Assembly: GCA_019694165.1 (NCBI GenBank)
Contig: JAIBCL010000022.1
Coordinates: 1-64,000 of the forward strand
Direction of reading: 5' to 3'
Origin: Verrucomicrobiaceae bacterium
GTDB lineage: Bacteria > Verrucomicrobiota > Verrucomicrobiia > Verrucomicrobiales > Verrucomicrobiaceae
DNA: 64,000 nucleotides
The position numbers and the translations under genes were made by a program. Positions 23,401-38,729 of this stretch are shown one piece after another (position 1 is the stretch's first letter; each line of letters starts with the position of its first letter). The notes under the pieces are model-generated. The model was not told the DNA's origin. It made no database searches and saw only the letters and a program-made list of their open reading frames with translations.

Positions 23401-26400
23401 CAGAGCGCCGGCAGCGGAGTGAACGGCGTGCCGGTGAGCACCACGGTGAACGGCCTCGTCGCAGGCACGACGTACCACGTCCGCCTCGTGGCGACGAACA
23501 GCGTGGGCACGACCAATGGCGATGACCAGACGATCACCACCTTCGCCGCCAGCAGCGCCACGGTGCAGCCGATGGCGCAGCATTTGAACACGGGCACCTC
23601 TCCGCTCGCATCTCTTTTCAAAGGCGCGGACGGCGCGTTCTATGGCACCACGTCCACGGGCGGCACGTTCGGATCGGGAACGGTGTTCCGCATGTCCCAG
23701 GGCGGCACGCTTGCCACGCTCGCCAACTTCTACAACAACACCAACGGCGCGCTCAGCGGCTCGAGTCCGCAGGCCGCTCCGGTGCAGGGCGCGGACGGAA
23801 ACTTCTACGGCACGACGAACAGCGGCGGCGCATTCGGCAGTGGCTGCATCTACAAGATGACGCCGGCCGGCCAGGTGACGGTGCTGGTGAGTTTCCGCAG
23901 TACGAGCGTGCCGCTCGGGTCGAATCCAGCCGCCATGCTCGCCCTCGGTGCCGACGGCAATTTCTACGGCACCACGCAGAATGGCGGCAGTTCATCCTTG
24001 GGCACCATCTTCAAGGTCACGCCGGCGGGCGTGCTCACCACGCTGGTAAGCTTCACTGGCACGACGGGCGCAAACCTGGGTTCCAGTCCGCGCGCCGGCC
24101 TCACTCTGGGTGCGGATGGAAACTTCTACGGCACCACCGCCACGGGTGGTGCGGGCGGGTTCGGCACCATCTTCAAGGTCACACCCGCGGGCGTGTTCAC
24201 CACGCTCGTGCAGTTCACGGGCACGGCGGGATCGTATCCCGGTTCCACGCCTCTTGGCGCGCTGGTGCTCGGCGCGGACGGAAACTTCTACGGCACCACG
24301 AGCCTCGGCGGCGCGAGCAACCTCGGCACCGTCTTCAAGCTCACTCCGGGCGCCACCTTCACCCAGCTCGCCACCTTCACCGGCACCACCGGCGCGGTGC
24401 CCGGCGCGACGCCGAAGGGCGCGCTCATCCAGATGGCGGACGGCAATTTCTACGGCACCACGCAGACCGGCGGCACGGGCAATTTCGGCACCGTCTTCCA
24501 GATCACGCCCGCCGGCGTGCTCACCCCCCTGGTGCATCTCACCGGCACCACCGGCGCGGCGTTGGGCACCACGCCGCAGGGTGCGCTCGTGGCGGGTTCT
24601 GATGGAGCGCTGTATGGCACCACAAACGCGGGCGGCCTCTACAATTTGGGCAGCGTCTTCCGCGTCACGACCTCCGGCTTGTTCAGCACGCTGGTGAACT
24701 TCACCGGCTCGCCGTCGTTCGGCCGCTTGATCCAAGGCGGCAACGGCGCGCTGTATGGTGCCACGCTCTCCACCGGTGGTGCCAGCGGCTACGGCACGCT
24801 TTTCTCCGCGCCTATCTCCGGCGCGCCGCTCGCGCGTACCACGCTCGCTCCGGTGTCCGGCACCACGGCGCTCAACGCACGCGCGGGCCTGCTCCTCGGA
24901 GCGGATGGCAATTACTACGGCACCACGGTGGCTGGCGGGGCGATCAACAGCGGCTCCGTCTTCTCACTCACGCCAGCCGGGGTTTACACCACTCTCCTGA
25001 GTTTCACTGGCACGAGCGGTGCCAATCCCGGATCGAGTCCGCAGGCGGCCCTCATCCTCGGCGCGGACGGCAATTTCTACGGCACTGCTTCGGGCGGCGG
25101 CAGCAGTTCATCGGGCATCGTGTTCAAAATGACGCCGGCGGGCGCGCAGACCACGCTGGTAAACTTCACCGGCACCGGCGGCGCGGCCCTCGGCTCCAGT
25201 CCGCAGGGACCGCTTACGCTCGGCAGCGACGGCAATTACTACGGCACCACGACCACCGGCGGCACGGGCGGCAGTTTCGGCACCGTCTTCAAAATGACTC
25301 CCGGCGGCGCGCTCACCACACTGGTGAATTTCACCGGTGTGACAGGTGCGGCCCTCGGCTCCTCGCCGCTCGGCGTGCTGGCACAAGGCGCGGATGGAAA
25401 CTTCTACGGCGTCACTTCGTCCGGCGGCCTGAATTCTCTCGGCTCGGTCTTCAGGGTCACGCCCGCGGGCGTGTTCACCAGTCTTGCCAGCTTCACCGGC
25501 AACACCGGTGCTCTGCCGGGATCGACACCGACCGGCGGCCTCTTCCCCGGTGCGGATGGCTGCCTCTACGGCGTCACTTCCTCGGGTGGCGCATACGGAA
25601 CCGGCGTGCTCTTCCGCCTCTCCCCGGACGCTGCCGTCACCACGCTCTGGTCCTTCAGCGGACGCACGGACGGCATCACGCCGAACAATGGACTCGCCTT
25701 CGCAAGCGACGGAAAGTTCTACGGCGGCAATGCCTCGGAAATCTATCGCTTCACGCCACCGCCGGTGGTGCTGACCGGGGCCGCGACAAACGTCCAGGCA
25801 AACAGCGCCACGCTCAACGGCTCGATCACCGGTGAGGGCTACGACGGCACGCTGCACTTCGAGTACGGCCCCACCACCAGCTACGGCAGCAATACGGACG
25901 AGCAGGACTTCGCGCACGGAGTCGCGCCGCAGTCCGTGAGCGCCGCGGTCACGGACTTGCAGCCCTTCCTCACGTACCACTGCCGCCTCGTGGCCTTCAC
26001 TTCGCTCGGCGCCACCTACGGCCAGGATCAAACGTTCACCACGCCCAGCACCGTCAACTTCAACGACAGCACCGACGTGCCGCTGGTGAACGATGGATTC
26101 AATCCCGCAGGCCAGACGCTCGGCATCTCCCTCGGCTTCGCGCCCGCGCCGGGCACGATCTTGAGGCTCGTGAGCAACACCGGCTTCACACCCGTGGCCG
26201 GCACCTTCAACAACCTGCCGGACGGCGGCACCATCACCGCCACCTTCGGCGCGCAGACCTATCTCTTCGTCATCAATTACAACGGCGGCGATGGCAATGA
26301 CGTCACCCTGACGCTCGTCACGCAGGCCATCAACTTCCCGGCGATCCCGAACAAGCTCACGACCGACGCACCGTTCACCCTCGGCGCCACTGCCACCAGC

Positions 26401-29400
26401 GGCCTGCCCGTGACTTATGCCGTCACGTCGGGAGCCGCGTCTGCGAGTGTATCCGGAGGCACCGTCACCCTCACCGGCACCGCCGGCATCGTCTCGATCA
26501 CCGCCACGCAGGCCGGCGATGGCGGAGCCTTCGGGCCCGCGCCGCAGGTGACGCGGACGTTTGCCGTCGTCGCCGGCTCCCAGTTCATCAAGCTTTCGAG
26601 CAGCAAGTACTTCTACCAAGTGACTGCCGGCATCAAGGCCGATGGCACTCTTTGGTCCTGGGGCTACGGCATCTACGGCCAGTTGGGCAACGGCAGCACC
26701 GCAACCACCTACACACCCACGCAAGTGGGAACCGCGACGAACTGGTCGTCAGTCAGCGTCGGCGGCCAGCATGTCCTCGCCACCAAATCCGACGGCACGC
26801 TCTGGGCATGGGGTTACAACGGCTACGGCCAGCTCGGAGACGGTACGAACACGCAGCGTAACAGCCCGGTGCAGATCGGTACGCTGACCACCTGGTCTGC
26901 CGTAGCAGCCGGCTACTCGCACTCGCTGGCCCTCAAGACCGACGGCACACTTTGGGCGTGCGGCTACAATACCGACGGGCAGCTCGGCCAGGGCACGTCG
27001 GACTCATTGACCACGCACACCGCCCTCGTGCAGGTGGGCACTGCCACAAACTGGTCTGGCATCGCTTCGGGCAATTACCACCTGCTCGCCACGCGCACCG
27101 ACGGCACGCTCTGGGCCTGGGGCTACAATGCATTCGGACAGATCGGCAACGCATCGACCACCTCCGCCACGTCGCCGGTGCAGATCACCTCCGCCACGAA
27201 CTGGAGCAGCATCTCCGGCGGCTACTATCACAGCCTCGCCACGCGCGCGGATGGTACGCTCTGGGCCTGGGGCCGCAATACCGAAGGCCAGATCGGCGAT
27301 GGCACCACCACGCAGCGCACCAGCCCGCTGCAAATCGGCGCCGCGACGAACTGGCAGAAGGTGATGGCCGGCGGCTTCGACAGCATGGCGTTGAAGACCA
27401 ACGGCACCTTGTGGAGCTGGGGATCGAACTTCTACGGCCAGCTCGGCCAGGGCGTCAGCGACGCCACTGTGCATGGCACCACGCCCACGCAAGTCGGCAC
27501 GGCCACGAACTGGTCGCTGGTCGCACCCGGCTACTACCACACCGTTGCAACGCGCAGCGATGGCACCACTTGGTCGTGGGGCAACAATACGAGTGGTGAA
27601 CTCGGCTACGCCACCGCCAACAAGCTGCTGCAACCGGTTGCCGCCCAGTTTGGCGCTGTCGCATCAGCGTCCGGTGGAAGCGGACACACCGTCATCCTCA
27701 AGCCCGATGGTACCCTTTGGCTTGCGGGCTACAACAGCGACGGCCAGCTGGGCATTGGCAGCACCGACTCTGGCGAGCATCCAGTGCTCGTTCAGCCGCT
27801 GCCGGGCACCCGCTGGATCAGTGCCTCGGCCGGAGGTAATCACACGGCTGCCGTCCGCAATGACGGCACCCTTTGGACATGGGGATACAATAACTACGGT
27901 CAACTTGGCGACGGCACCACGGTATCACGCAGCACCGCCGGACAAGTCGGCACGGATGCCAACTGGGTCAGTGTCGCCTGCGGCTTCTATTTTACCATCG
28001 GGCTGCGCGCGGACGGCACGCTTTGGGCCTGGGGATACAACAGCGACGGGCAGATGGGCAACGGCACCACAAACACCACAGGCCAGTTCGCTCCCGTCCA
28101 GGTCGGGACCGCCACGAATTGGGCCTCCGTCACCTGCGGCGGGTATCATGTGTTGGCGACGAAGCAGGACGGCAGCCTGTGGGGCTGGGGACGTAACATC
28201 GACGGACAACTCGGCGATGGCACCACCACCAGCCGTAGCAGCCCGGTGCAAGTGGGCAGCGCCACGACTTGGCGAGCCATTTCCGCCGGCCAGTATCACA
28301 CCATCGCCACACGCACCGACGGCACGCTCTGGGCCTGGGGATACAATGGATTCGGCCAGATCGGCGACGGCACCAACACCAGCCGCAGCAGTCCGGTGCA
28401 GATCGGCACCGGCACGACATGGAAGAGCGTCGGCGCGGGATTCTACCACAGCGTGGCAACCAAGACCGACGGCTCGCTTTGGACCTGGGGCTACAACTTC
28501 TACAACCAGCTCGGCGATGCCGGCACCACCAACCGCAACAGCCCCACGCGCGTGGGCACCGGCAGCGGCTGGAGCAATGCCTTCCGGACGTTCAACCACT
28601 TCACCCTCGTCACCAGCGGTGATGAGAGCCTGTGGGGCTGCGGTTACACGCCCTACGGGCAGACCGGCTACGCCTGGCGCAATCAGCTCGTGCCCGACAC
28701 CGTGATCCCCGGCCTCAGTGCTCCGCAGACGGTGGCATTCCCCGCCGTGCCGCGCACGCCGGTCGGCAGCACCGTCACGCTCGCCGCCACGAGCAGCAGC
28801 GGGCTGCCGGTACGCTACATCATCAGCGGCCCCGGCGTGCTCACCGACGCCCGCGTCACCGTCACCGGTCCCGGCATGATCTCCGTCTTCGCCTGGCAGC
28901 CGGGCGACAATTTCTTCCAGTCCTCCGACATGGCCGTGCAGTACATCAATCCCCCCGCGCCCGACATCGCCATCGAGCAGCCGGAGGGTGCCGGTCTCAC
29001 AGACGGCGTCTCGACCGTTGATTTCGGCGCGCCGCTGCCCACGCAAAACACCACGCGCACCTTCACCATCCGCAACACGGGCGATGCCACGCTCACCATC
29101 ACCACCGCGACGATCGACGGCGCAAACTCCGGCGACTTCGCCGTCGGCACCCTGCCCTCCACGCTCGCGCCCGCAGCCAGCGCGACATTCACCGTGACCT
29201 TCACGCCTCCCGCGCTCGGCACCCGCACGGCGGTGCTGCACATCGCCTCCAACGATACCCACGAAACCCCCTTCGACATCGCGCTCGCCGGCGTCGGCGC
29301 CACCGAAATCGAATCGTGGCGGCAGCAACATTTTGGCAGCGCCGCCAACAGCGGCAGCGCCGCCGACAACGCCGACCCCGACGGCGACGGCATCAAGAAC

Positions 29401-29727
29401 CTCATGGAATTCGCGCTCGGCACCAGTCCGACCACCAACTCCACCGACCTGCTGCCCATTGTGTCCGACGCGATCAAACCCGGCGACGGCAAGCACTACC
29501 CCACCATCAGCTACCGCCGCCGCATCACGCCCGGCACGCTCAATTACGCGTTGCAAAGCTCGCCCGATCTCACCACATGGACCACGATCCCAGGCGTGAA
29601 TCTCGAGCAGGTCGGAGCACCAGTCGCGACCGGCGATGGCATCACCGAAGTCGTCACCTTCCGTGTGCTCCCGGCCATCGACGATTCCCCTGCCCCGCGC
29701 TTCGTAAGACTGAGCGTGACGAACTGA
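14422..29727 (+). CDS. giant 5101-residue M36-type metallopeptidase with repeat modules
   Basis: One uninterrupted frame. Residues 10-30 are a hydrophobic anchor or signal; 110-230 resemble a fungalysin/thermolysin propeptide; about 370-770 are a fungalysin (M36) domain with HEYTH at 548-552 and the third zinc-ligand region GEGWSD from 574. Then, in order: a BACON-like domain (770-873), a beta-rich domain (874-1071), Calx-beta-like and invasin-like modules with a lamin-tail domain inserted (1072-2060), 15 TIGR03803 repeats (2062-2851), two fibronectin-like domains, 14 more TIGR03803 repeats (3045-3781), a third fibronectin-like domain, an autotransporter-associated-type module, an Ig-like domain, 14 RCC1 repeats (4053-4760), an ASPM/SPD-2/Hydin-like domain (about 4850-4960) and a C-terminal DPDGDG tail. 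It is probably an exported adhesive or degradative surface protein. No sorting signal beyond the tail is recognised. Confidence 0.93.
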   Translation: MKRHSNSATAALGVALLAAVLVVLLCLLVFRSRRSGPQSSPDIATATSPAPVDSPGKRQEEPRAGAPRENPARDIMSRLKPKALPDIDARKAAPAPPPSRQAAALALRKNVPGVKIDFDAHTGTPANVTAPGRFLSRPRDAAAANDPHGEVRRFLDENAALFGHDAALLDAAHARVSMDDVTAHSGLKTMVWAQQLDGIPLFKTILKANLSAKNELVAIGSHFLADPAGASGKTAAERAALISQPPVDARRAVSLAAASVNDLVPPGQVTAQGAASGAEQKQHFAAPGISDTYALLTWMPVSDSKVTLAWDVTSFSLARNEMFRTVVDAESGEILNRTSLTNDATDASFRVWADATTKKPFDSPNPMLPGTPTPSGVQGVEVPRQLVTLQSADATASPNGWINDGGQETLGNNVDAHTDTNADNQPDLPRPNGGASRVFDFPIDLTAQAPGQYKDASVTQLFYINNWMHDQLYGLGFTETSRNFQTNNFGRGGLGNDAVLADAQDGSGTNNANMSTPGDGSPPRMQMYIFPSPNPDRDGDFDDIIVLHEYTHGLSNRLVGGGVGISATATGGMGEGWSDFYGLALLADPNSDPNAVYPGGSYATLQFVSGMMSNYYYGIRRYPYCTDMSKNPLTFRDIDPTQASPHTGIPLSPLFGSSNSNPGEVHNVGEVWCMALWECRANLITKYGAAGNQKVLQLVTDAMKLCPVNPNLLQSRDAIIQADLVAFGGANRNELWAAFAKRGMGASATAPASSTTTGVVEAFDMPDDLSVSPLSTFAAAGPVGGPFNPAVQTYTLTNNGTSALTWTAGGTQSWITASPAGGTLASGASTTVTVTFNTAANALTAAAYSGAVRFTNNTSGITVSAPVTLSVGAVDYFTELFTSGNDTDNQSWLFTPNGSPSFYSVARTASVSSFSTDPTGGTNLSLGDDSYSTITLSGGSTVKLYGTSYSTFYVGSNGYVTFGSSDSTLAESLVNHFAYKRVAALFDDLNPSAGGTVSWRQLADRVAVTFQGVPEYNTTNSNDFQIELFFDGRIRISCLAISAVDGLIGLSQGTGTPANFVMSNFNTYPTSGGGGAATLALSAPATSTEGAGVLTGQGSVTLSASQASDVVVTLASTNTNEITVPTSVTVLAGQTSATFDITVIDDALLDGTQSVILTAGASGFATVSRVMAVNDNDGTGVLTISAPASTTEGAGSINATLTLSAAPAGPLPVTMSSSDATAIAAPATVVVPAGQTTLSFPLTVVDDNKIDGPQTATVTAHVNGWTDGATGTITVADNENTNLAITLPTSVTEGGTGTGTVVISGTLPSALVVALSSDTTSRLTVPATATIAAGATSASFTLAAPNNTLTDGSATVAVSASASGFTGASFNTTVLDNDVHHYSFGTIASPQTRGVPFSVTINALDVNGVTIASYTGTPSLTGAGTGGAVTVTPTTTTAFVAGVWTGNVTVGTFDSNVVLTASDGSGHTGASNAFNVTTGALHHFAWNTQAARAVNAPVSATITAQDAGNNTLTGFTGTTALSGYVLIPQTSGIVISEVNPNTPDEVEFKNIGTGSVDISGWQIYLYDNVSWPAPMSVFTIPSGTICASGEIFRLQENGTSPGAYPLFYKGANVDWTSAAGSQCAVLLRNAAGTPVDFVAAAASTPASITSPQAIPSAQWTGAQVAGPTNTAYDYQRIGSTDGNTAGDWTTATPGIGTTNTGQTFPFSAPAAVFITPTISGAFTSGVWTGNVAVLQPAQQMRLRADDGSAHVGDSNAFDVFGTLSLSVPASAPEGSAPVTGTVSVSSAPAGDLTVTLTSSDITAATVPATVTILSGQTSATFPITIIDDAAIDGTQVAAITAHITSWADATANISVLDNETLSLAVFVPGTIAEGTTATGTVSASGTVAAALTVNLASDNTPRLTVPATVTIASGTASTTFTATAVDNALTDGSAPATVTAAASGYTSGSSTTTVLDNDVHHFGISAIAAPQTKGVPFAVTITAYDSANNVLTGYNGAPALSAAGTAGSVVISPTNASGFISGVWAGQVTAYGTDTNVVVTVNDGAGHTGASNTFNIINPTSVLTVVEPVTPLSIYPGQNPRAPLVVGADGSLYGTTQTGGGSNQGTVFKITTAGVMTTLVNFYGANGMQPYAGLVLASDGNFYGTTSAGGANNLGTIFKMTPSGVLTTLVHLSTSTGTAPRAPLVQHTDGNFYGTTSAGGSSSSGTIFKMTSAGVLTVLVNFTGTGSTAYGSSCQAGLIKGTDNNLYGVTSAGGSGGGFGTVFKVTTGGTFTSLASFTGTTGAALGSAPLAALLQAADGNLYGTTSAGGTGGFGTVFKITTAGVFTNLLSFTNTTGSFLGNNPQSALIQWSDGNLYGMTNTGGANSIGTIFRVTTAGVLTTLRSLVSSTDGANPYGALVLHSDGNFYGTANAGSTQARGTVFRFAPGTSTFTRILSFTISPPYMKNMILASDGNFYGGAANGNAGLGSVFKQTPAGVFSTPVNFISNNFGAPYLLEGTDGNLYGTQPTESSNGEVFRLSFAGGKTTLATLTGTSAPSPGTTIIAGMIEATDGYLYGVTSGGGTGGGFGTVFKVSPGDGTFTSLTSFTGTSGIAPGSTPQTKLVEGADGALYGTTQSGGAGNFGTVFKVSTGGVMENIVQFTGTTGGYLGTSPNSNLLLAGDGNFYGTTSTGGTGNFGSIYRIAPDGTFTSLVSFTSTSGSYLGSTPTTNLVQGSDGNLYGTTTGGGSGGGNGTVFKLALPSGTFTSLVSFTGTSGAAPGATPHATLRQGADGYFYGTTSGGGFFGLGTVFRVNAAGIFQSLYQFGTNNDGGSPNLNGSSSFPEAYRLVAGGDGYLYGTNGSTVFRVHQQPAIQSVAASGVTTTGATLNGSVTPNQDGATAYYQYGVNTNYGSQTAPQTLAAGTAAVPVNASLAGLLPGTVYHYRLVTVTSQGTFYTADQTFATAGAPLVITGSLVVAAQTGFSLDGVVNPLGSATSYYFEYGADTSYGASTTTQSAGSGVNGVPVSTTVNGLVAGTTYHVRLVATNSVGTTNGDDQTITTFAASSATVQPMAQHLNTGTSPLASLFKGADGAFYGTTSTGGTFGSGTVFRMSQGGTLATLANFYNNTNGALSGSSPQAAPVQGADGNFYGTTNSGGAFGSGCIYKMTPAGQVTVLVSFRSTSVPLGSNPAAMLALGADGNFYGTTQNGGSSSLGTIFKVTPAGVLTTLVSFTGTTGANLGSSPRAGLTLGADGNFYGTTATGGAGGFGTIFKVTPAGVFTTLVQFTGTAGSYPGSTPLGALVLGADGNFYGTTSLGGASNLGTVFKLTPGATFTQLATFTGTTGAVPGATPKGALIQMADGNFYGTTQTGGTGNFGTVFQITPAGVLTPLVHLTGTTGAALGTTPQGALVAGSDGALYGTTNAGGLYNLGSVFRVTTSGLFSTLVNFTGSPSFGRLIQGGNGALYGATLSTGGASGYGTLFSAPISGAPLARTTLAPVSGTTALNARAGLLLGADGNYYGTTVAGGAINSGSVFSLTPAGVYTTLLSFTGTSGANPGSSPQAALILGADGNFYGTASGGGSSSSGIVFKMTPAGAQTTLVNFTGTGGAALGSSPQGPLTLGSDGNYYGTTTTGGTGGSFGTVFKMTPGGALTTLVNFTGVTGAALGSSPLGVLAQGADGNFYGVTSSGGLNSLGSVFRVTPAGVFTSLASFTGNTGALPGSTPTGGLFPGADGCLYGVTSSGGAYGTGVLFRLSPDAAVTTLWSFSGRTDGITPNNGLAFASDGKFYGGNASEIYRFTPPPVVLTGAATNVQANSATLNGSITGEGYDGTLHFEYGPTTSYGSNTDEQDFAHGVAPQSVSAAVTDLQPFLTYHCRLVAFTSLGATYGQDQTFTTPSTVNFNDSTDVPLVNDGFNPAGQTLGISLGFAPAPGTILRLVSNTGFTPVAGTFNNLPDGGTITATFGAQTYLFVINYNGGDGNDVTLTLVTQAINFPAIPNKLTTDAPFTLGATATSGLPVTYAVTSGAASASVSGGTVTLTGTAGIVSITATQAGDGGAFGPAPQVTRTFAVVAGSQFIKLSSSKYFYQVTAGIKADGTLWSWGYGIYGQLGNGSTATTYTPTQVGTATNWSSVSVGGQHVLATKSDGTLWAWGYNGYGQLGDGTNTQRNSPVQIGTLTTWSAVAAGYSHSLALKTDGTLWACGYNTDGQLGQGTSDSLTTHTALVQVGTATNWSGIASGNYHLLATRTDGTLWAWGYNAFGQIGNASTTSATSPVQITSATNWSSISGGYYHSLATRADGTLWAWGRNTEGQIGDGTTTQRTSPLQIGAATNWQKVMAGGFDSMALKTNGTLWSWGSNFYGQLGQGVSDATVHGTTPTQVGTATNWSLVAPGYYHTVATRSDGTTWSWGNNTSGELGYATANKLLQPVAAQFGAVASASGGSGHTVILKPDGTLWLAGYNSDGQLGIGSTDSGEHPVLVQPLPGTRWISASAGGNHTAAVRNDGTLWTWGYNNYGQLGDGTTVSRSTAGQVGTDANWVSVACGFYFTIGLRADGTLWAWGYNSDGQMGNGTTNTTGQFAPVQVGTATNWASVTCGGYHVLATKQDGSLWGWGRNIDGQLGDGTTTSRSSPVQVGSATTWRAISAGQYHTIATRTDGTLWAWGYNGFGQIGDGTNTSRSSPVQIGTGTTWKSVGAGFYHSVATKTDGSLWTWGYNFYNQLGDAGTTNRNSPTRVGTGSGWSNAFRTFNHFTLVTSGDESLWGCGYTPYGQTGYAWRNQLVPDTVIPGLSAPQTVAFPAVPRTPVGSTVTLAATSSSGLPVRYIISGPGVLTDARVTVTGPGMISVFAWQPGDNFFQSSDMAVQYINPPAPDIAIEQPEGAGLTDGVSTVDFGAPLPTQNTTRTFTIRNTGDATLTITTATIDGANSGDFAVGTLPSTLAPAASATFTVTFTPPALGTRTAVLHIASNDTHETPFDIALAGVGATEIESWRQQHFGSAANSGSAADNADPDGDGIKNLMEFALGTSPTTNSTDLLPIVSDAIKPGDGKHYPTISYRRRITPGTLNYALQSSPDLTTWTTIPGVNLEQVGAPVATGDGITEVVTFRVLPAIDDSPAPRFVRLSVTN
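15530..16730 (+). other. M36 fungalysin-type peptidase domain within the giant protein
   Basis: HEYTHGLSNR (residues 548-557) holds the two zinc histidines and the catalytic glutamate; GEGWSDFYG about 20 residues later provides the third ligand glutamate, the spacing expected for M36. Upstream N-terminal sequence fits an FTP-type inhibitory propeptide, so the enzyme is probably made as a zymogen. No active-site residue appears to be missing. Confidence 0.88.
17640..20600 (+). repeat. Calx-beta-like and invasin-like modules with inserted lamin-tail domain
   Basis: Several modules of about 100 residues share TEG/EG near the start, SxxPAxVxxxAGxTSxxF, VxDNxxxDG and an LDNDV-type end, resembling Calx-beta folds. 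Modules at 18550-18870, 19545-19700 and 20300-20600 share GVWTGNV or GVWAGQV followed by DGxGHTGxSNxF. Between 19015 and 19545 one copy is interrupted by a lamin-tail-like domain (ISEVNPNTPDEVEFKN start). The blocks 18250-18850 and 19990-20600 are clearly duplicated, both holding LDNDVHH. Confidence 0.7.
20605..22975 (+). repeat. TIGR03803 (Gloeo/Verruco) repeat block A, 15 copies
   Basis: About 15 copies of a unit of roughly 50-55 residues built around DGNFYGTT, GG and GTVFK(I/V)T, with a linker such as LVNFTGTTG. Copies 8 and 9 are the most diverged, and the last (DGYLYGTNG) is shortened. The block is followed by two fibronectin-like domains. At DNA level this is a tandem array with about 150-165-base units and considerable divergence. 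Confidence 0.9.
23556..25765 (+). repeat. TIGR03803 (Gloeo/Verruco) repeat block B, 14 copies
   Basis: Fourteen copies of the same unit as block A, more uniform (ADGNFYGTT in most). Copy 8 (GNGALYGAT) is irregular and followed by a non-standard linker, dividing the block into two halves of about seven. It is followed by another fibronectin-like domain, so the order repeat block then fibronectin-like cap occurs twice. Confidence 0.88.
26578..28700 (+). repeat. RCC1-like repeats, 14 copies (two times seven)
   Basis: Fourteen units of about 50 residues contain DGTLWAWGYNxxGQLGDGT followed by SPVQ(I/V)G and a GxYHSLAT segment. Copies 7 and 14 share an unusual end (LGYATANKLL and TGYAWRNQLV), marking two sets of seven, the number of blades in one RCC1 propeller. 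The array is flanked by Ig-like domains. Confidence 0.9.
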
Positions 29728-29920: not shown

Positions 29921-31939
29921 TCATTCGCTCGCCAGCGGACCGATCCGCTTCGTCCCGACGACCATCTCGTCGATCCACAGCTTCTGCGCATGAGGCAGCA
30001 GGCCGGGGCCGAAGCAGGGGGCCATGAGGAACTGGTTGAACTTCATGTTCGGAAAGTCGGTGGAGCGCAGGATCACGTCCGTGCGGTCGATGACCAGTTT
30101 GCCGTCGAACCAGCCGCGCACGATGCCGTCGGCATTGGGCTTCTCGTTTTTGAGGTCGAGCGTGTTGAGCTTGAACTGCGCCTCGATGCAGTGCCAGGCG
30201 TCGTCGGTGAAGAGTTCGTCCGCGCTGTCGAACAACTGGCCATTGTAGCCGCCTTTGAGCGGTCCCTGCGTCAATCCGTGCGGGGCGTCCTTGTTCTCAA
30301 TGTCCTGCGCGGCGAGGCGCAGCTTGCCGTTCACCGGCTCGATGTAGAGCGTGAGATGGCTCGCCGCGGGTCCATGCCACTTGGCGTTCTCCGTCGTCAT
30401 GAAGTGCGTGAGATGCGGATGATAGCTTCTGCCGCTCCAGCCCCAGCCTTTCGAGAGTTTGAGGTAGTAGCGGATGAAAACCTCGTCCGCAGCCTCGAAC
30501 AGGTGCCGTTTTGCGGACGAACCCGTCACGCTTTCGCTGCCGTCGATCCATTCATACTCGATGCATTGGCCGCGCATGCCTCCCGGCACAATGCGGACCT
30601 CCTTGCCGTCATACCAGCCGCGTGAACCGGCCGCAGCGTCATCGAAACTTTCGCTGAAAAGTGCGCCCTCGAGTTTCGGCGTCATTCTCACGAGCCGCAT
30701 GATCCTGCCCTTGGCCATGTTGCAAAACAGCAGTTCGCCATCGCGTGGATCGACACCCATGCCGGTGATGGACGGTTCAAAGGCGATGATTTCGTCCTTC
30801 CATCGGCCCTCCTTCTCGCGTAGCGCGATCACGCGGCCAAAGGCGTAGTCTGCGCAGATGTAGGCATCTTTGAATTCGGAGAATCCCGTGCCGCGATACA
30901 CACAACCGCCAGTGATGCTGATGCCCGTGGAACGTGAGTATTCGAATATCGGATCGATGGAATGAAAATCTCGCGGCACCGCTTCCTTGCCGGGACCGAG
31001 ATCGAATGCATGCAGCCCTTCGCGATGACTCCAGCCGTAGTCGCCGCCTCGTCGAATCAAGTTTACTTCTTCAAACAGACTCTGGCCCACATCCGCGGCA
31101 AACAAGCGGCCGGTGGGCGGATCAAAGCTGAAACGCCACACATTGCGCAGCCCTGTGGCCCAGATTTCTGATCGCACCTTTGTGGGATCGAGCGCGCGTC
31201 CATGGTGAGTCTTCGAGCCGACAAACGGATTGTCTGCAGGCACCGCGTAAAACGCCGCGCCGTTCGCATCGAGCGCGATGGCCGGATGCGCGTTCGGCGG
31301 CAGGCTGCCGGGCCGTTTGTCCACGTCGATGCGGAGGATCGCGGCATGGAAGTCCTTGTCGATGAAGCGCGCGTTGTCGAAGGCGTCCATCTGGCCGCCG
31401 CCATCGCCGACGCTGACGTAGAGAAAACCGTCCGGACCGAAGTGCAGGTCTCCGCCGTTGTGATTGCCCGCCGGATCGAGCTGCGTGATGAGCGGCTGCT
31501 CTTTGTCCCCGTCGAATCGCGACACACGCTGATAGAGCCGGCCATCGATACGCAGGCTGTAGCAGACGAAGAAGCGGACGTTGCGCACGAAGTCCGGATG
31601 CAACGCCAGGCCCAGCAACCCGCATTCGCCTCTGTCATCGAGCTTGCCGTCAGGTCGGGTCGTGAGATCGGCAAAAAGCTGCTTATGAGGCGCCGGCTGA
31701 TCGAGTTTCGTCACCTCCTGGATGCAGCCGGTCTTCTCGACGACGAACAAGCGGTCCTTCTCGCCGGGCGGACTCACCACCGCCACCGGCATCGAAAACG
31801 ACAGACCTCCGAGCGCGTCCTCCAGCGCATAAGCCAGCGGCGGCAGCGGCGAGGGAGCAGGCGGGGGCTTCTTAACCTTCGGCGTCTGCGCGACGGCCAT
31901 TCCAGTCAGGGCAATGACGAGGTGAAGGCAGATTCTCAT
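29921..31939 (-). CDS. exported PQQ-type sugar (sorbosone/glucose) dehydrogenase-like protein with C-terminal beta-sandwich
   Basis: The 672-residue product has a signal peptide (MRICLHLVIALTGMAVA) and a GSDH-like beta-propeller in the first two thirds: GLLGLALHPDF, AGNHNGGDLHFGPDGFLYVSVGDGG, GLRNVWRFSFD and a GGDYGW segment are family landmarks. The last about 220 residues lack propeller motifs and look like an extracellular beta-sandwich or lamin-G-like module (GWYDGKEV onwards). It probably oxidises a sugar or acts as a sugar-binding propeller. Whether it binds PQQ cannot be told. The start is set by the signal peptide, not the upstream in-frame ATG at 32026. Confidence 0.85.
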   Translation of the reverse strand: MRICLHLVIALTGMAVAQTPKVKKPPPAPSPLPPLAYALEDALGGLSFSMPVAVVSPPGEKDRLFVVEKTGCIQEVTKLDQPAPHKQLFADLTTRPDGKLDDRGECGLLGLALHPDFVRNVRFFVCYSLRIDGRLYQRVSRFDGDKEQPLITQLDPAGNHNGGDLHFGPDGFLYVSVGDGGGQMDAFDNARFIDKDFHAAILRIDVDKRPGSLPPNAHPAIALDANGAAFYAVPADNPFVGSKTHHGRALDPTKVRSEIWATGLRNVWRFSFDPPTGRLFAADVGQSLFEEVNLIRRGGDYGWSHREGLHAFDLGPGKEAVPRDFHSIDPIFEYSRSTGISITGGCVYRGTGFSEFKDAYICADYAFGRVIALREKEGRWKDEIIAFEPSITGMGVDPRDGELLFCNMAKGRIMRLVRMTPKLEGALFSESFDDAAAGSRGWYDGKEVRIVPGGMRGQCIEYEWIDGSESVTGSSAKRHLFEAADEVFIRYYLKLSKGWGWSGRSYHPHLTHFMTTENAKWHGPAASHLTLYIEPVNGKLRLAAQDIENKDAPHGLTQGPLKGGYNGQLFDSADELFTDDAWHCIEAQFKLNTLDLKNEKPNADGIVRGWFDGKLVIDRTDVILRSTDFPNMKFNQFLMAPCFGPGLLPHAQKLWIDEMVVGTKRIGPLASE

Positions 31940-32093
31940 GGCGGCAACACATTCGAATACGCCGACCAGAGTCACATTTGCACCTTCGCGGGACGTTCCG
32001 CTCCCGCTGTCGCAATCGGAAAACATTTCCTGTGAAACACGCGATTTTTGTTAATCGTGGAGGCTCTTCACCGTTTTCAACCGCCTCACTCGC

Positions 32094-33008
32094 ATGAACA
32101 CCCGCCGTCAATTCCTCACCACCAGCCTCGGCGCGCTCGGCGCGTCTTCTCTCTCCGCCATCGAGCCGATCAAGCGCAGCGGCCCGGGCAAAATGGAACT
32201 CGGCGTGGCCGCCTACGGCTTCCGCGAATATTTCGAGTGGAGCCGTGACAAGAAGAACAAGCCGAAGGACGGCCACGCGCAGATCACCATCCTCGACTTC
32301 GTGAACTGGTGCGCGGACAACGGCGTGCCCGGCGCGGAACTCACCAGCTACTTCTTCCCGCCGGACTGCGATGCGGCCTACTGCGAGAAAGTCCGCGCCC
32401 TCGCCGACAAGCGCGGCGTGCGCATCACAGGTTCCGCCATCGGAAACACATACACCAATCCACCGGGCGAGAAGCGCGACGCGGAGCTGGCCTACACGAA
32501 GAAGTGGGTGGACTTCTGCGCCATCATGGGCGCGCCGCACATCCGCGTCTTCGCCGGTGCCGCGCCGAAAGGCATGTCGCTCGAAGACGGCGTGAAGAAT
32601 TGCATCGAGACCTACCAGATGGCGCTCGATTACGCGGCCACGAAGAAGATCTACCTCGGGATCGAGAACCACGGCGGCATCGTGGCCGAGCCCGAGCAGC
32701 TCATCGCCATCATCAAGGCCGCGAAGAGCGAGTACGCCGGCATCAATTTCGACTCCGGCAACTTCCACACCGAAGATCCGTATGCCGACCTCGCGAAGAT
32801 CGCGCCCTACACGGTGAACGTGCAGCTCAAGGTGGACATCAAGCGCAAAGGCGCCGCCAAGGAAGAGCCGAGCGACATTCCCCGCGTGATCAAGATCCTC
32901 CGCGATGTGAACTACTCCGGCTGGTTCACGCTCGAGTACGAGCGCAGCGATGATCCGTTTGTGAGCATCCCGGAGGTTGTAAAGACGCTGAAGCCGTTGC
33001 TCGCTTGA
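32094..33008 (+). CDS. Tat-exported sugar phosphate isomerase/epimerase-like TIM barrel
   Basis: The 304-residue product begins MNTRRQFLTTSLGALGASSL, a twin-arginine signal typical of verrucomicrobial and planctomycete xylose-isomerase-like barrels. The body has the family's metal-ligand positions in GIENHGG, NFDSGNF and a C-terminal TLEYE segment. Members isomerise or epimerise keto-sugars; the exact substrate is unknown. It lies between a sugar dehydrogenase and an MFS carrier, and its stop is immediately followed by the first of two 10-bp repeat arrays. Confidence 0.9.
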   Translation: MNTRRQFLTTSLGALGASSLSAIEPIKRSGPGKMELGVAAYGFREYFEWSRDKKNKPKDGHAQITILDFVNWCADNGVPGAELTSYFFPPDCDAAYCEKVRALADKRGVRITGSAIGNTYTNPPGEKRDAELAYTKKWVDFCAIMGAPHIRVFAGAAPKGMSLEDGVKNCIETYQMALDYAATKKIYLGIENHGGIVAEPEQLIAIIKAAKSEYAGINFDSGNFHTEDPYADLAKIAPYTVNVQLKVDIKRKGAAKEEPSDIPRVIKILRDVNYSGWFTLEYERSDDPFVSIPEVVKTLKPLLA

Positions 33009-33009
33009 G

Positions 33010-33049
33010 TGAGGCTTGCAATGGTTGGCGGTTGTTGGCTGTGGTTTGC
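33010..33049 (-). repeat. left array, four 10-bp units
   Basis: Four adjacent 10-bp units reading outward on the minus strand: 33040-33049, 33030-33039, 33020-33029 and 33010-33019, all fitting GCMAACMAYY loosely (the last is GCAAGCCTCA). Confidence 0.8.
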
Positions 33050-33138
33050 AGTTGTTGAAAGGCAAACCATGGCCGAAGCGACAGAGGCGTCTGACAATTG
33101 CAAACATCGCCGCCGTCTGCACACAACCGCCAACCCGC

Positions 33139-33516
33139 ATGAGAAAGCAATTTCCCTTTGAGAAACCCGAAGTCTGGCAAGACGGACGAAAGCCGGTGGT
33201 CGGTGTTTGTTCATGCTCGCGAGGATTTCCAAAAGACGAGCGGTTCGGTCTGACCAGCCAGCTCACCGGTGCGGCGGTATCCGTTGCCGATAACCTTGCT
33301 GAAGGAACCGGCCGCTCCAGCCTCAAAGTTCAGGCGCGTTTCTCCAGCCAGGCATGCGGGTCATCAATGGAAACCGCATCGGATCTCATCACTGCGACTG
33401 ATCTTCAGTTCGCACCCCGGCCGGCAACTGATCCACTCCTCGATCAAGCCTACGACCTCAGAGTCCGCATCCACAACCTTCGTGAATCGCGGCTCCGACG
33501 AGCGCAAGAATCCTAA
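33139..33516 (+). CDS. four-helix-bundle protein (23S rRNA intervening-sequence protein family), diverged
   Basis: The 125-residue product follows the TIGR02436 pattern: FEKPEVWQ, FPKDERFGLTSQL, AAVSVADNLAEGTGR, then the METASDLITATDL segment and a C-terminal helix. The family is found in rRNA intervening sequences and as free-standing genes, with the bAvd accessory protein of diversity-generating retroelements as a distant relative; its function as a free gene is unknown. Several positions look damaged (KPVVG in helix 1, GSSMET where a GSL-ET pattern is usual), yet the frame is open. It could be a slowly decaying copy. No reverse transcriptase is nearby. Confidence 0.7.
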   Translation: MRKQFPFEKPEVWQDGRKPVVGVCSCSRGFPKDERFGLTSQLTGAAVSVADNLAEGTGRSSLKVQARFSSQACGSSMETASDLITATDLQFAPRPATDPLLDQAYDLRVRIHNLRESRLRRAQES

Positions 33517-33523
33517 AGTCACC

Positions 33524-33563
33524 GCAAACCATCGCCAACAATCGCAAACCACTGCAAGCCATG
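33524..33563 (+). repeat. right array, four 10-bp units
   Basis: Four adjacent 10-bp units at 33524-33533, 33534-33543, 33544-33553 and 33554-33563, beginning GCAAACCATC. The last unit ends in the ATG used as the MFS start codon. Confidence 0.8.
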
Positions 33564-35051
33564 CCTTCACCCAAACTCACCACCACCCAATGGCTCATCA
33601 TCATCATCGCGAGCATTGGATTCCTCTTCGACACCTATGAGCTGCTGATGACGCCGCTGGTGGCTGCACCGGCCATCGCCGAACTGCTGAAGCTGCCGCC
33701 GAGCAATCCGATCGTCACCAGCTGGGTGGGCAATTTGCTCACCATTGCGGCGGTATGCGGCGGCGTCTTCGGCCTGCTGGGCGGCTGGCTGATCGACAAG
33801 TTCGGCCGCAAGACCATCATGGCGGCCAGCATTTTCGTGTACTCGGCAGCGCCGTTCTGCGCCGCCTATGCCACCTCGCTCACCACGTTTATCATCTTCC
33901 GCAGCGCCACGTTTATCGGCGTGTGCGTCGAGTTTGTGGCTGCAGTCACTTGGCTGGCGGAAGTGTTTCAGGACAAGAAGCAGAAGGAGAAATGGCTCGG
34001 CATCACTCAAGCCTTTGCCTCCATCGGCGGTGTCTGCGTGACGCTGATGAGCATCTGGATCAACAACAAGCTCAAGGCCGGCGGACTGCCAGCCTTCTCT
34101 CTGCCCGCTGGCATCGATGGCGCGGTCGGCTCCTGGCGCTATCTGCTCATGACAGGCATTCTGCCTGCGATTCCGATTGTCCTGCTGCTGCCGTTCGTGC
34201 CGGAATCACAAGTCTGGCGCGAGAAGAAGGCGTCCGGCGCGCTCAAGCGTCCGAGTTTTGGCGGCTTGTTCTCGCCGGAGCTGCGCAAGGTGACTCTCGT
34301 CACCACCATCCTCTCCGCCTGCGCCTACGGCATCGCATTCGGCGCCCTGCAGGTCACCGTCGCCCGCGTGACACCCGGCCTTCCGGAACTTGCCCCGCAG
34401 GCAAAGACCATGGCCCCCATGATAGCCGAAGCAAAACAGCTCAACACCCAGCTCAATGCATTGCCTCCAGCCGATCCGGCCCGCAAGGACCTCGTGGCGA
34501 AGATCAAGGCGAACGCCTTGCAGCAGGCACCTCACAAAAAGATCGTCGATGAAATGAGCAGCAAGGTGCAGTTCCGCCAGGAGATGGGCGGCCTCGTCGG
34601 CCGCATTGTACTGGCGCTGCTGCTCATCATCGGCATGAGCCGCGTGGCGATGCTGAAGGTCTTCCAGATTCCCGCGCTCTTCATCCTGCCGGTCACCTAC
34701 TTCACGCTCTTCGCAAAAGGCGGCGAGACTTTCCTCTGGGGCTACTTCTTGTGCGGCCTCGTCACCGTTGCGCAGTTCAGTTACTTCGGAGAATACCTGC
34801 CGAAGATTTTCCCGCTGCACCTTCGTGGCACGGGCGGCAGCTTCGCCACCAATGTCGGCGGCCGCATGATCGGCACCTGCATGGCCACGCTGAACACGAG
34901 CTGGCTCGCCCCGATGCTCGCGGGCGGGATCCAGAATGTAAAGCCGATGCACGTTGCCCAGGCGGCCGGGATCATTGCGACAGCGATGGCCGTGATCGCC
35001 TTCGTCGCCGGGTTTCTGCTTCCCGAGCCGAAGGATCAGGCGGGCGAGTAG
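33561..35051 (+). CDS. MFS transporter with periplasmic insertion
   Basis: The 496-residue protein has 12 predicted membrane helices and the MFS loop 2-3 motif GGWLIDKFGRK. It begins MPSPKLTTTQW right at the end of a repeat array. Residues about 268-342, between helices 7 and 8, form a hydrophilic Lys/Ala/Gln-rich stretch far longer than the usual short loop, predicted periplasmic. The context of KDG kinase, 6-phosphogluconate dehydrogenase and a sugar isomerase suggests a sugar or sugar-acid substrate. It converges with the KDG kinase gene with 19 bases between stops. Confidence 0.92.
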   Translation: MPSPKLTTTQWLIIIIASIGFLFDTYELLMTPLVAAPAIAELLKLPPSNPIVTSWVGNLLTIAAVCGGVFGLLGGWLIDKFGRKTIMAASIFVYSAAPFCAAYATSLTTFIIFRSATFIGVCVEFVAAVTWLAEVFQDKKQKEKWLGITQAFASIGGVCVTLMSIWINNKLKAGGLPAFSLPAGIDGAVGSWRYLLMTGILPAIPIVLLLPFVPESQVWREKKASGALKRPSFGGLFSPELRKVTLVTTILSACAYGIAFGALQVTVARVTPGLPELAPQAKTMAPMIAEAKQLNTQLNALPPADPARKDLVAKIKANALQQAPHKKIVDEMSSKVQFRQEMGGLVGRIVLALLLIIGMSRVAMLKVFQIPALFILPVTYFTLFAKGGETFLWGYFLCGLVTVAQFSYFGEYLPKIFPLHLRGTGGSFATNVGGRMIGTCMATLNTSWLAPMLAGGIQNVKPMHVAQAAGIIATAMAVIAFVAGFLLPEPKDQAGE

Positions 35052-35070
35052 CCGCACCTCGTCGCACGCC

Positions 35071-36168
35071 TCACCGCACCACGCGCGCGCCGCCGCCTTT
35101 GATCTGCTTCTCGACTTCCTTGCGGGTGGCCATCGACGTGTCGCCGGGCGTGGTGGAAGCGAGCGCGCCGTGGGCTGCGCCGTATTCGACGGCCTTCTGC
35201 GCGTCGTTGAACTCCATGAAGCCGAATTGTACGCCGGATGCGAATGAGTCGCCGCCGCCGACGCGGTCGAGGATCTCGAGGTCGGGATATTTGCGGCTCT
35301 CGTGGAATTTGCCGTCGTGCCAGAGGATGGCTGACCAGTCGTTGACCGTGGCGCTCTTCACGACGCGCAGGGTCGTGGCGGCGACTTTGAAGTTCTTGAA
35401 CTCCTTCACGGCGGTTTCAATCATCGCCTTGAACGCATCGATCTCGATGGCGCTGATGTTGTGATCCACGCCTTTCACTTCGAAGCCGAGCGATGCGGTG
35501 AAGTCCTCCTCATTGCCGATCATGACATCGACATACTTCGCGATCTCGCGATTGACCTCCTGCGCCTTCTGCAGGCCGCCGATCGTCTTCCAGAGCGACG
35601 GGCGGTAATTCAAATCGTAGCTGACGATGGTGCCGTGCTTGTTCGCTGCCTTCACGGCCTCGATCGTGAGCGCAGCGGTCGTCTCGGACAGCGCGGCGAA
35701 AATGCCGCCGGTGTGAAACCAGCGTGCGCCGAGTTTGCCAAAGATGTGATCCCAATCGATGTCGCCTGGCTTGAGCTGCGAAGCGGCGGTGTTGCCACGG
35801 TCAGGATTGCCGACCGCGCCACGGATGCCGAAGCCTCGCTCGGTGAAGTTCAGGCCGTTGCGCACGGTGCGACCGATGCCGTCGTCCTCGCGCCACTTGA
35901 TGAAGTCAGTGGCGACGCCACCCTGCATGATGAAGTCCTCGATCAGATGGCCCACTTCATTGTCCACGAACGCCGTCACCACCGCCGTCTTGTAGCCGAA
36001 GCACTTCCTCAAACCACGCGAGGTGTTGTATTCGCCGCCGCCTTCCCACGCCTTGAATTCGCGGGCGGTGCGGATGCGGCCTTCGCCTGGATCGAGGCGG
36101 AGCATGACTTCGCCGAGCGAGATTTGATCGAAGGCGCAGGATTCGCGGGGTTTGATGGTGAGGCTCAT
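35071..36168 (-). CDS. kdgK: PfkB-family kinase, probable 2-dehydro-3-deoxygluconokinase
   Basis: The 365-residue product has an N-terminal GEVMLRLDPGEGRI stretch as in KdgK, GGGEYNTSRGL, YDLNYRPSLW, and the C-terminal PfkB signature GGGDSFASG with the catalytic Asp. KdgK makes KDPG from 2-keto-3-deoxygluconate, feeding the Entner-Doudoroff pathway. The next genes on this strand encode sugar-acid dehydrogenases, consistent with this role. It is separated by about 66 bases from gnd upstream. A ribokinase-like activity on another keto-sugar cannot be excluded. Confidence 0.85.
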   Translation of the reverse strand: MSLTIKPRESCAFDQISLGEVMLRLDPGEGRIRTAREFKAWEGGGEYNTSRGLRKCFGYKTAVVTAFVDNEVGHLIEDFIMQGGVATDFIKWREDDGIGRTVRNGLNFTERGFGIRGAVGNPDRGNTAASQLKPGDIDWDHIFGKLGARWFHTGGIFAALSETTAALTIEAVKAANKHGTIVSYDLNYRPSLWKTIGGLQKAQEVNREIAKYVDVMIGNEEDFTASLGFEVKGVDHNISAIEIDAFKAMIETAVKEFKNFKVAATTLRVVKSATVNDWSAILWHDGKFHESRKYPDLEILDRVGGGDSFASGVQFGFMEFNDAQKAVEYGAAHGALASTTPGDTSMATRKEVEKQIKGGGARVVR

Positions 36169-36234
36169 GACTGGGAAGAAGTGAGTGGGTGAGTTGGTTT
36201 TGAAAAACGTGAACGACGGATCAGCGTGGCAGCA

Positions 36235-37692
36235 TCAGACCGTGTAGGTCTGCGACGTGGTGGAGCCGCCGCGGCCGGTCCAGTTGGTGTGGAAGAACTC
36301 GCCGCGCGGTTTGTCGATGCGCTCGTAGGTGTGGGCGCCGAAGTAGTCGCGCTGGGCTTGGAGCACGTTGGCGGGGAGGCGCTCGGTGCGGTAGCCGTCG
36401 AAGTAGGCGAGCGCGGCGCTGAGGCAGGGCACGGGGATGCCGAGCTGGACGGCCTGCACGACGGCGCGCCGCCACGCGGCCTGACGGGTCTCGACCGCCT
36501 CGCGGAAGAACGGATCGAGGAGCAGGTTCACGAGGTTCGCATCGCGATCGAAGGCCTTCTTGATGTCGCCGAGGAAAGCGGAGCGAATGATGCAACCACC
36601 GCGCCACACGAGGGCGATGCCGCCATTGTTCAGGTTCCAATTGTTCGTCTTCGCCGCGGCGCGCATCAACTGATAGCCCTGCGCGTAGCTGACGAGCTTC
36701 GAGGCGTAGAGCGCCTGACGGAGATCGTCGATGAAGGCCTTGCGGTCGCCCTTGAAGGTTTCGACCACGGGCTTGATCTGCTTCGAGGCCTCGACGCGCT
36801 CCGACTTCATGGCGGAGAGACAGCGCGCGAACACGGACTCACCGATCAGCGTGAGCGGCATGCCGTCGTCGAGCGCGGAGATGACCGTCCACTTGCCCGT
36901 GCCTTTCTGGCCGGCGGCATCGAGAATGAGGTCGATGACTTCGCCACCGCCTTCGTCCTTCACGGCGAGGATGTCGCGCGTGATCTCGATCAGGTAGGAG
37001 TCGAGTTCGCCCTTGTTCCACTCGGTGAAGACGTCGTGCATCTCGCTGTTCGAGAGACCGGCTCCGCGCTTCAGCAAATCATAGACTTCGCAGATGAGTT
37101 GCATGTCGCCGTACTCGATGCCGTTGTGCACCATCTTCACGAAGTGACCGGCACCATCCGAGCCGATCCATTCGCAGCACGGCTCGCCGGCGGGCGTGCG
37201 GGCGCAGATGGCTTGGAAGATGGGCTTGATGTGCGGCCAGGCGGCCTCGCTGCCACCGGGCATCATCGACGGGCCTTTCAGCGCGCCTTCCTCGCCACCG
37301 GACACGCCGGAGCCGACGAAGAGCAAGCCTTTGCTCTCGACGTATTTCGTGCGCCGGATGGTGTCCGGGTAGTGGCTGTTGCCGCCGTCGATCAAGATGT
37401 CGCCCGGCTCGAGCAGCGGGATCAATTGCTCGATGAGTTCATCGACCGCGCTGCCCGCCTTCACGAGCATGATGATTTTCCGCGGACGCTTCAGCGAGGC
37501 GACGAATTCCTTCAGATCGGTCGCGCCGACAAACTTTTTCCCCTTGGCGCGGCCGTTGATGAAGGCATCCACCTTCGCGGCGGTGCGGTTATAGACGGAA
37601 ATTGGAAAGCCTTTGCTTTCGATGTTGAGGGCGAGGTTCTCGCCCATGACGGCGAGGCCGATGAGGCCGATGTCGGATACGGGGGTGCTCAT
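36235..37692 (-). CDS. gnd: 6-phosphogluconate dehydrogenase (decarboxylating)
   Basis: The 485-residue protein has the N-terminal NAD(P) motif [14 protein letters not shown], the [11 protein letters not shown] substrate segment, the catalytic [15 protein letters not shown] (Lys and Asn) and the C-terminal end TNWTGRGG. Length is normal for the homodimeric long form. It converts 6-phosphogluconate to ribulose 5-phosphate and CO2. The frame extends to 38133, but the family N-terminus starts at 37692. Its leader contains five 8-bp tandem repeats. Confidence 0.96.
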
Positions 37693-37707
37693 GAGGTGGG
37701 GGAAAGG

Positions 37708-37747
37708 GGAATGGTGGAGTGATGGAATGGTGGAATGGTGGAATGAT
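37708..37747. repeat. five 8-bp tandem repeats in the gnd leader
   Basis: Five consecutive 8-base units (37708-37715, 37716-37723, 37724-37731, 37732-37739 and 37740-37747) follow GGARTGRT; three are identical (GGAATGGT). They lie 16-55 bases upstream of the gnd ATG, between gnd and the 2-hydroxyacid dehydrogenase gene. Confidence 0.85.
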
Positions 37748-37763
37748 GATTCCGGGGCGCGGA

Positions 37764-38729
37764 TCAGAACGTGTTCGCCTGCGCGTGCGGCTTCTGACCG
37801 GAGAGGAAGAGCGTGAGATTCTCGACGGCGCAGGATGCCTGGCGCTGCACGCTCTCGTGGGTGCGTGAGCCGATGTGCGGCGTGACGATACAGTTCGGCA
37901 GCTTGAGCAGCGGATGATCCGCGGGCGGCGGCTCCACCTCCAGCACGTCGGTGCCGTAGCCGGCCACCTGCCCGGACTGCAACGCGGCGACCATGTCGGA
38001 GGTGTGAACGATTTCGCCCCGCGCGCAGTTCAGGATGATCACGCCCTGCTTCATCTTCGCGATGGAGGCCGCGCAGATCATGTCGCGCGTCTCCGGCGTA
38101 AGGTTCGTGTGGAGCGAGATGTAGTCCGAACACGCGAAAATCTCATCGAGCGATGCAGCCCGCTTCACGCCGTGCTCGGCGGCAAACTTGTCGTCCCAGT
38201 AGAGATCGTAGCCGACCGGCTCCATGCCGAAGGCACGCGCGCGAATCGCCACCTCCTTGCCGATGCGACCCACGCCCACGATGCCGATGGTCTTGCCCAT
38301 CACTTCGTGGCCCGTCTTGCGCTTCCAGCCGCCGGAGCGGGTCGAGTCCGTGTGGAAGAGGAAGTTTTTCTCCAGTGCGAGGAGGAGCAGGAAGGTGTGC
38401 TCGGCCACCGTCGTGTGATTCACGCCGGGAGTGAAAAGCACGGGTATCTTGAACTCGGTGGCGCTCTTCACGTCGATCTTGTCCAGTCCGATGCCGTACT
38501 TGCTGATGACCTTGAGCCGCGGAAGGGACTTCTCGATCACCGCGCGCGTGATGCCGTCGTCGCCGCAGAGAAACGCGTCGAACTCGCCCGCCAGCTCAAG
38601 CATCCGCGACTCCGGCAGCGGACCGCGCTCACGCACGACCTCATAACCACCGGCGGCAAGCAGATCGTGATGACGGCCGGGCGTGTCTTGGAATGACGTG
38701 GTGGTGAGGAGGATGCGGGTGGGGTTCAT
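37764..38729 (-). CDS. D-isomer 2-hydroxyacid dehydrogenase (phosphoglycerate dehydrogenase-like)
   Basis: The 321-residue product has the Rossmann motif [13 protein letters not shown] and the family catalytic residues: Arg in NCARGEI, Glu in DVLEVEPP, and His in [11 protein letters not shown]. It should reduce a 2-keto acid, or oxidise the 2-hydroxy acid, with NAD(P). Sequence alone does not separate glyoxylate/hydroxypyruvate reductase from phosphoglycerate dehydrogenase; no ACT domain is present. Hydroxypyruvate or 2-keto-sugar reduction would fit the neighbouring genes. The start at 38729 matches the family N-terminus. Confidence 0.9.

Follow-up and report, generated by a model that had tools for sequence, protein, structure and literature searches.

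The 64,000-nt stretch of DNA analysed here (the window) contains, between two protein genes, a compact element made of one small gene framed by two arrays of short repeats (Table 1). The arms detected by repeat search are mutually inverted, 40 nt long and 85% complementary, and the left array continues beyond its arm. When one mismatch was allowed, the motif GTTKRCNNTKGTTKRC matched eight times in the 64-kb window, always within the element, against an expectation of 0.31, and none of 100 shuffles reached eight. The outer ends of both arrays read GGCTTGC/GCAAGCC. A sequence-only reading of this DNA had described 10-bp arrays with a common terminal GCAAGCC unit around a four-helix-bundle gene, all of which proved to be real. 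It had also described both edges as flush. This holds for the right array, which runs up to the ATG at 33561; the left array starts 4 nt, not one, after the upstream stop codon (TGA, 33006-33008). An extra inverted copy of the array, which could pair with the left arm and so replace the right arm, precedes the start codon of the enclosed gene, and the same arrangement occurs in four close relatives (L078, L085, L086 and L097).

Table 1. Features at the element and its borders in the window
Feature	Positions	Strand	Basis
Upstream gene, sugar-isomerase-like TIM barrel; host gene outside the element	32094..33008	+	PF01261, E 1.3e-32
Left array of 10-bp units GTTKGC-NNTK (arm 33013-33052), coding strand rich in G	33013 to about 33057	+	Repeat search
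Extra inverted array copy between left arm and IVP start codon	about 33094..33136	+	Inverted matches I4, I11, I24
IVP gene, four-helix-bundle protein of 125 aa (23S rRNA intervening-sequence protein family)	33139..33516	+	TIGR02436, PF05635
Right array (arm), coding strand rich in C; forms an inverted repeat with the left arm and ends at the next start codon	33521..33560	+	Repeat search
Downstream gene, MFS transporter; host gene	33561..35051	+	PF07690, E 2.7e-16

The upstream sugar-isomerase-like gene has orthologs in 65 of the 68 genomes of the bacterial family. Rfam gave no match in positions 31500-38500 of the window, and the element lies outside any 23S rRNA gene; there were likewise no Rfam matches at 20 Planctomycetota IVP loci. 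Elsewhere in the window, five 8-bp units (GGAATGRT) form a solo array at positions 37701-37748, which has neither a gene nor an inverted partner and fills the gap directly upstream of the start codon of a minus-strand gene that resembles 6-phosphogluconate dehydrogenase. A single ORF of 5101 codons spans positions 14422-29727 and contains internal repeats about 162 bp long.

The gene enclosed by the arms matched only intervening-sequence protein (IVP) families in NCBIfam and Pfam (TIGR02436, 71.6 bits; PF05635, 78.5 bits with a cut-off of 33.8), and no transposase. Its predicted structure consists of four helices arranged in a bundle (pLDDT 97.3), for which the best PDB match was 2gsc, followed by 2rld. 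Avd (4dwl, 8ube) ranked behind these two, with TM-scores of 0.61-0.77 but Foldseek E-values of 0.35-0.75, and the PDB search returned no sequence match between Avd and the window protein. The gene is under strong purifying selection at this site (dN/dS about 0.07, with dS saturated), and the window protein deviates from one nearly invariant arginine, at position 44. At least one IVP family match was present per genome in 66 of the 68 genomes of the bacterial family. In family and fold the window protein is the same as the free-standing 'four helix bundle protein' genes (TIGR02436; 2gsc, 2rld). Such free-standing TIGR02436 genes are regarded as lone genes of unknown function, and to our knowledge no role is known for genes annotated as 'four helix bundle protein'.

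We surveyed 100 IVP loci, most of them from the same bacterial family and four from other phyla. The left flank of each was locally aligned with the reverse-complemented right flank, and arms were called at a score of 30 or more. Arms were found at 85 of the 100 loci. The corresponding rate was 1.0% for neighbouring positions (n = 193) and 1.7% for flanks cross-paired between unrelated loci, a control that leaves out related proteins because orthologous loci otherwise inflated the scores. Counted per independent site, 37 of 42 had arms, and arrays were visible by eye in several of the other five. The four genomes from other phyla (Planctomycetota, Acidobacteriota, Gemmatimonadota and Saganbacteria) had arms at 17 of 22 IVP loci. 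The survey thus bears out the suggestion of the sequence-only reading that a precise element with periodic arrays is associated with free-standing four-helix-bundle genes in general. Its emphasis on ten bases as one helical turn is not supported: periods were mostly 7, 8 and 10 bp, with 7 and 8 commoner than 10, and each arm held about four to five units irrespective of the period.

Unit sequence and period vary among lineages of the element, and agree between both arms of one element. The order of units agrees as well (0.875, compared with 0.769 after unit permutation), and on the coding strand G outnumbered C within the left arm in 62 of 71 cases (p 7e-11). The window genome itself (G000) has five good IVP copies, four of which displayed clear inverted arms (score of at least 30); their repeats differ, with 10-bp units in the window element and 7- or 8-bp units in the others. 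The fifth copy (L005, 1451-1963) has visible 7-bp arrays and a weak arm score, and sits between stretches resembling parts of an hsdM methylase gene. Array length can also differ strongly within a genome, as in L056, whose left array has about 17 units of 8 bp versus three in its near copy L037. Two Planctomycetota genomes (G072 and G084) contained the most multi-copy IVP-like genes that we found, without arms, and these seem to be another subfamily. Their loci (L212, L214, L225, L226 and L242-L269) represent more than 20 copies of distant IVP-like genes per genome, and some of the copies in G072 share about 80-92% DNA identity across roughly 500-780 bp, which makes them another repeated family.

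Arms and gene travel together. Between unrelated sites, which have no flank homology, array similarity climbed with protein identity from 0.18 to 0.60, and none of 500 permutations reached as high. When the elements L061 and L083, located at different sites, were compared, homology was confined to the stretch from arm to arm. Our results establish that the arms and the IVP gene form one inherited, exchangeable cassette with precise ends.

The sites occupied by these cassettes are alike in layout. After neighbouring genes had been assigned by codon-based gene choice at 38 independent sites, both neighbours lay on the IVP strand at 30 sites and on the opposite strand at five, two sites were convergent, none was divergent, and one was left unassigned. 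Flanking genes were therefore co-directional at 35 of 37 sites, with IVP in sense at 30 and in antisense at five (p 2e-5, for a null that applies to the sense bias only). The median distance from an arm was 2 bp to the facing stop codon and 6.5 bp to the facing start codon. The functions of the flanking genes are unrelated from site to site.

Empty and filled alleles with precise ends, as expected of a mobile cassette, were observed. At the site of L104 (genome G022), the element is absent in about 13 related species; the flanks abut in G052 and are mostly about 4-19 bp apart elsewhere. Several of these empty sequences apparently have an upstream stop that overlaps the next start codon. No target-site duplication was visible at this site, where the empty sequences reach only 80-89% identity, with differences of a few bp. 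At the window site, five element-free relatives had the same two neighbours, with an isomerase-transporter gap of 30-76 bp. The sampled loci yielded no instance of a recent move to a new site, the best pair from different sites being 83% identical in protein. The L104 junction looks like an insertion hot spot. Three genomes carry other inserts there, of 429, 431 and 569 bp (L166 in G033, L167 in G055 and L172 in G020), which had no clear match to the element, while G032 and G048 have arrays of other units at this junction.

Same-site comparisons revealed replacement. In the close genomes G064, G065 and G067, the elements at several shared sites diverge far more than their surroundings. In the pair L090/L102, flanks are about 94-95% identical, the IVP proteins are 56-66% identical, and pS is 0.79 in the IVP gene versus 0.17-0.21 in the adjoining genes. 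The same pattern was found in L016/L019, L054/L057, L065/L071, L088/L092 and L064/L096; over all such pairs, flanks are about 85-97% identical and pS is 0.68-0.97 for IVP versus 0.12-0.44 for flanking genes. Flank identity in most pairs stays high until about 20 bp from the arms and is then abruptly lost, the upstream boundary being less clean in L064/L096. Other same-site pairs are vertical, such as L090/L091 (IVP pS 0.19) and L065/L067 (pS 0.31). Such close flanks around divergent elements indicate that one whole element took the place of another at the same spot, the ends lying at or close to the outer arm edges. Homologous recombination between populations carrying old alleles could be an alternative source of these swaps.

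Gene-less copies complete the picture. Among 50 relatives, the window site carries an IVP gene in about 20 and only array remnants in about eight to ten, and the rest have neither. The sequence-only reading had named two observations as evidence against its proposal. One, a lack of periodic arrays around other copies, is contradicted by the survey; the other, arrays without the gene at orthologous loci, does occur. Most of these gene-less copies, however, retain the last bases (3′ end) of the IVP gene, and are thus deletion derivatives. Their left and right arms are of different unit subtypes, and arm matching had a median score of 23 in copies without IVP (n = 8) compared with 50.5 in copies with an intact gene (n = 22). 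One or two deletions probably gave rise to the derivatives, and the eight gene-less copies are therefore not eight independent tests of arm upkeep. Among the intact copies, a change of unit subtype from GTTKGC to GTTKAC has affected nearly every unit in the two arms and happened a single time on the tree. Gene-less hairpins and arrays elsewhere share the unit type of a resident element (for instance L033, 205-281), and a further gene-less array of 10-bp units lies at G000:C31:95075-95175.

Folding predictions gave a mean arm-arm pairing of 0.81 in the transcripts, and the window transcript had a z of -3.1, its predicted stem being closed from the upstream stop codon to the downstream start codon. 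This pairing is possible in either strand, as follows from the arms being inverted repeats. Mismatches between the arms included 59 G-U pairs in sense and 86 in antisense in raw counts; the compositions of the arms differ, and after correction the values were 1.10 and 1.24, so these counts revealed no excess of sense over antisense G-U pairs.

Collectively, we consider it probable on balance that these loci are compact, mobile, intervening-sequence-like elements in which pairing of the arms loops out the IVP gene. The components of this reading differ in strength. That it is a mobile cassette with boundaries defined by the arms is highly probable; whether IVP binds the units of its own arrays is evenly poised; and that the arms exist for the sake of RNA loop-out is a more tentative proposal. 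In the sampled loci the element sits between the stop and start codons of co-directional neighbours, with IVP mostly in sense. The arms would pair in the polycistronic RNA so that the IVP gene loops out and the upstream stop comes to lie beside the downstream start, and the insert would thereby be tolerated within the operon. Most likely, an oligomer of IVP would bind its own array units and would be required either to move the element or to keep its two arms matched, as we infer from the upkeep of the arms only where the gene is intact. The sequence-only reading had proposed outward protein-binding combs. Binding of protein to the units is indeed possible, but that description understated the arms, which are register-specific mutual inverted repeats.

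Combs would be central if the element were instead a domesticated regulatory module, retained and hardly moving, in which IVP binds the arrays and controls the operon as well as its own translation. We regard this as unlikely. It would fit the purifying selection on IVP, its retention at the window site in many relatives, the arrays that sit flush before the IVP ATG and the downstream ATG alike, the concerted change of unit subtype in one clade, and the fold that IVP has in common with Avd. The purifying selection could also, more generally, be taken as a sign of host function and count against a mobile element. A resident regulator is nevertheless difficult to reconcile with the many relatives that have no element or only remnants at the window site, with the swapping of elements for distant relatives with different unit sequences, and with neighbours of unrelated function among sites.

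The closest known element is the intervening sequence (IVS) of the Coxiella burnetii 23S rRNA, which, in the accessible part of its description, is 428-444 nt long, has a 28-bp stem with an IVP/S23 ORF in its loop, and is excised by RNase III (PMC4990558). Both elements have an IVP/S23 ORF between stem-forming terminal inverted repeats within a transcribed operon, and IVP cassettes are of similar length (423-675 bp). The window element thus resembles an IVS in encoding a PF05635 protein and in carrying terminal inverted repeats that could form an ORF-enclosing stem, but not in location, since an IVS lies in rRNA and IVP cassettes lie between protein genes. Furthermore, cassette arms consist of tandem units, of which the accessible text makes no mention for the 28-bp stem, and the Coxiella protein is, according to the same text, seemingly not made, whereas IVP here is under purifying selection.

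That selection weighs against the cassettes being equally passive intervening sequences, in which the arms are a mere RNase III stem, IVP contributes nothing, and spread depends on occasional recombination. The protein family and the ORF-in-stem plan shared with the Coxiella element, which RNase III excises, would agree with such passivity, as would the sense bias within operons and the predicted stem. Arms, however, match weakly where IVP has been lost, and they are tandem arrays specific to protein lineages, which would be superfluous for an RNase III stem. We therefore hold this explanation to be distinctly unlikely.

IVP and Avd, the accessory protein of diversity-generating retroelement (DGR) reverse transcriptases, have a common four-helix-bundle fold, with the weak E-values given above. 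The two direct neighbours of the window element are a TIM barrel and an MFS transporter, and neither a reverse transcriptase nor template/variable repeats were identified beside it. In-place hypermutation, for example by DGR-like error-prone copying, could in principle have produced the same-site divergence, which is very large in some pairs. Pairs with equally close flanks (L090/L091 and L065/L067) nevertheless display no acceleration, and the divergent pairs combine near-saturated synonymous change with a moderate pN/pS (0.19-0.40), a pattern to be expected if the lineages separated long ago. Hypermutation rather than exchange is therefore very improbable. Ordinary short-repeat slippage in intergenic spacers, with the IVP gene as a bystander, would account for varying unit numbers (L056 versus L037) and for the few solo arrays elsewhere, including the one in the window, but is scarcely credible given that IVP genes are flanked by arms about 80 times more often than neighbouring positions are, and given the mirror orientation of the arms, their matching unit order and their units that track the protein lineage.

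The reading of a mobile cassette also has to be set against known mobile elements. Insertion sequences and other transposons with terminal inverted repeats differ in that the IVP cassette encodes no transposase and its terminal repeats are not conserved, unit sequence and period varying by lineage. Foldback/Galileo elements likewise have long terminal inverted repeats carrying internal repeats, but in the accessible text they are described as eukaryotic DNA transposons with a P-type transposase (PMC3573991), which the window element does not have. REPIN/RAYT systems, like IVP cassettes, are small, lie between genes in bacteria, and have inverted arms as well as gene-less derivatives (REPINs: PMC3116915, as far as its text is accessible); IVP cassettes, however, have no tyrosine transposase, and their arm sequence is not conserved among elements. 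Arrays of TAACTGA upstream of start codons in Beggiatoaceae (PMC4679880) may merit comparison. The sequence-only reading knew of no described system of this form, and we likewise found no description of arms, cassette boundaries or exchange for IVP genes in open-access papers.

It can be speculated, though we deem it improbable, that IVP elements are widespread minimal mobile elements that home to mRNA stop/start junctions via an RNA step. An Avd-like IVP oligomer would bind its own units and pass the looped-out RNA to a reverse transcriptase, either cellular or resident. In the course of this process one arm would also be copied onto its partner, and every lineage would thereby evolve matching arms of its own.

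The half-kilobase IVP cassette found in many bacteria looks like a widespread mobile element. If IVP genes do belong to a mobile element with defined ends, this would provide one explanation for both a large class of unexplained genes and the odd short-repeat arrays between operon genes. How an element devoid of transposase finds stop/start junctions and keeps its arms matched would then become a testable question.
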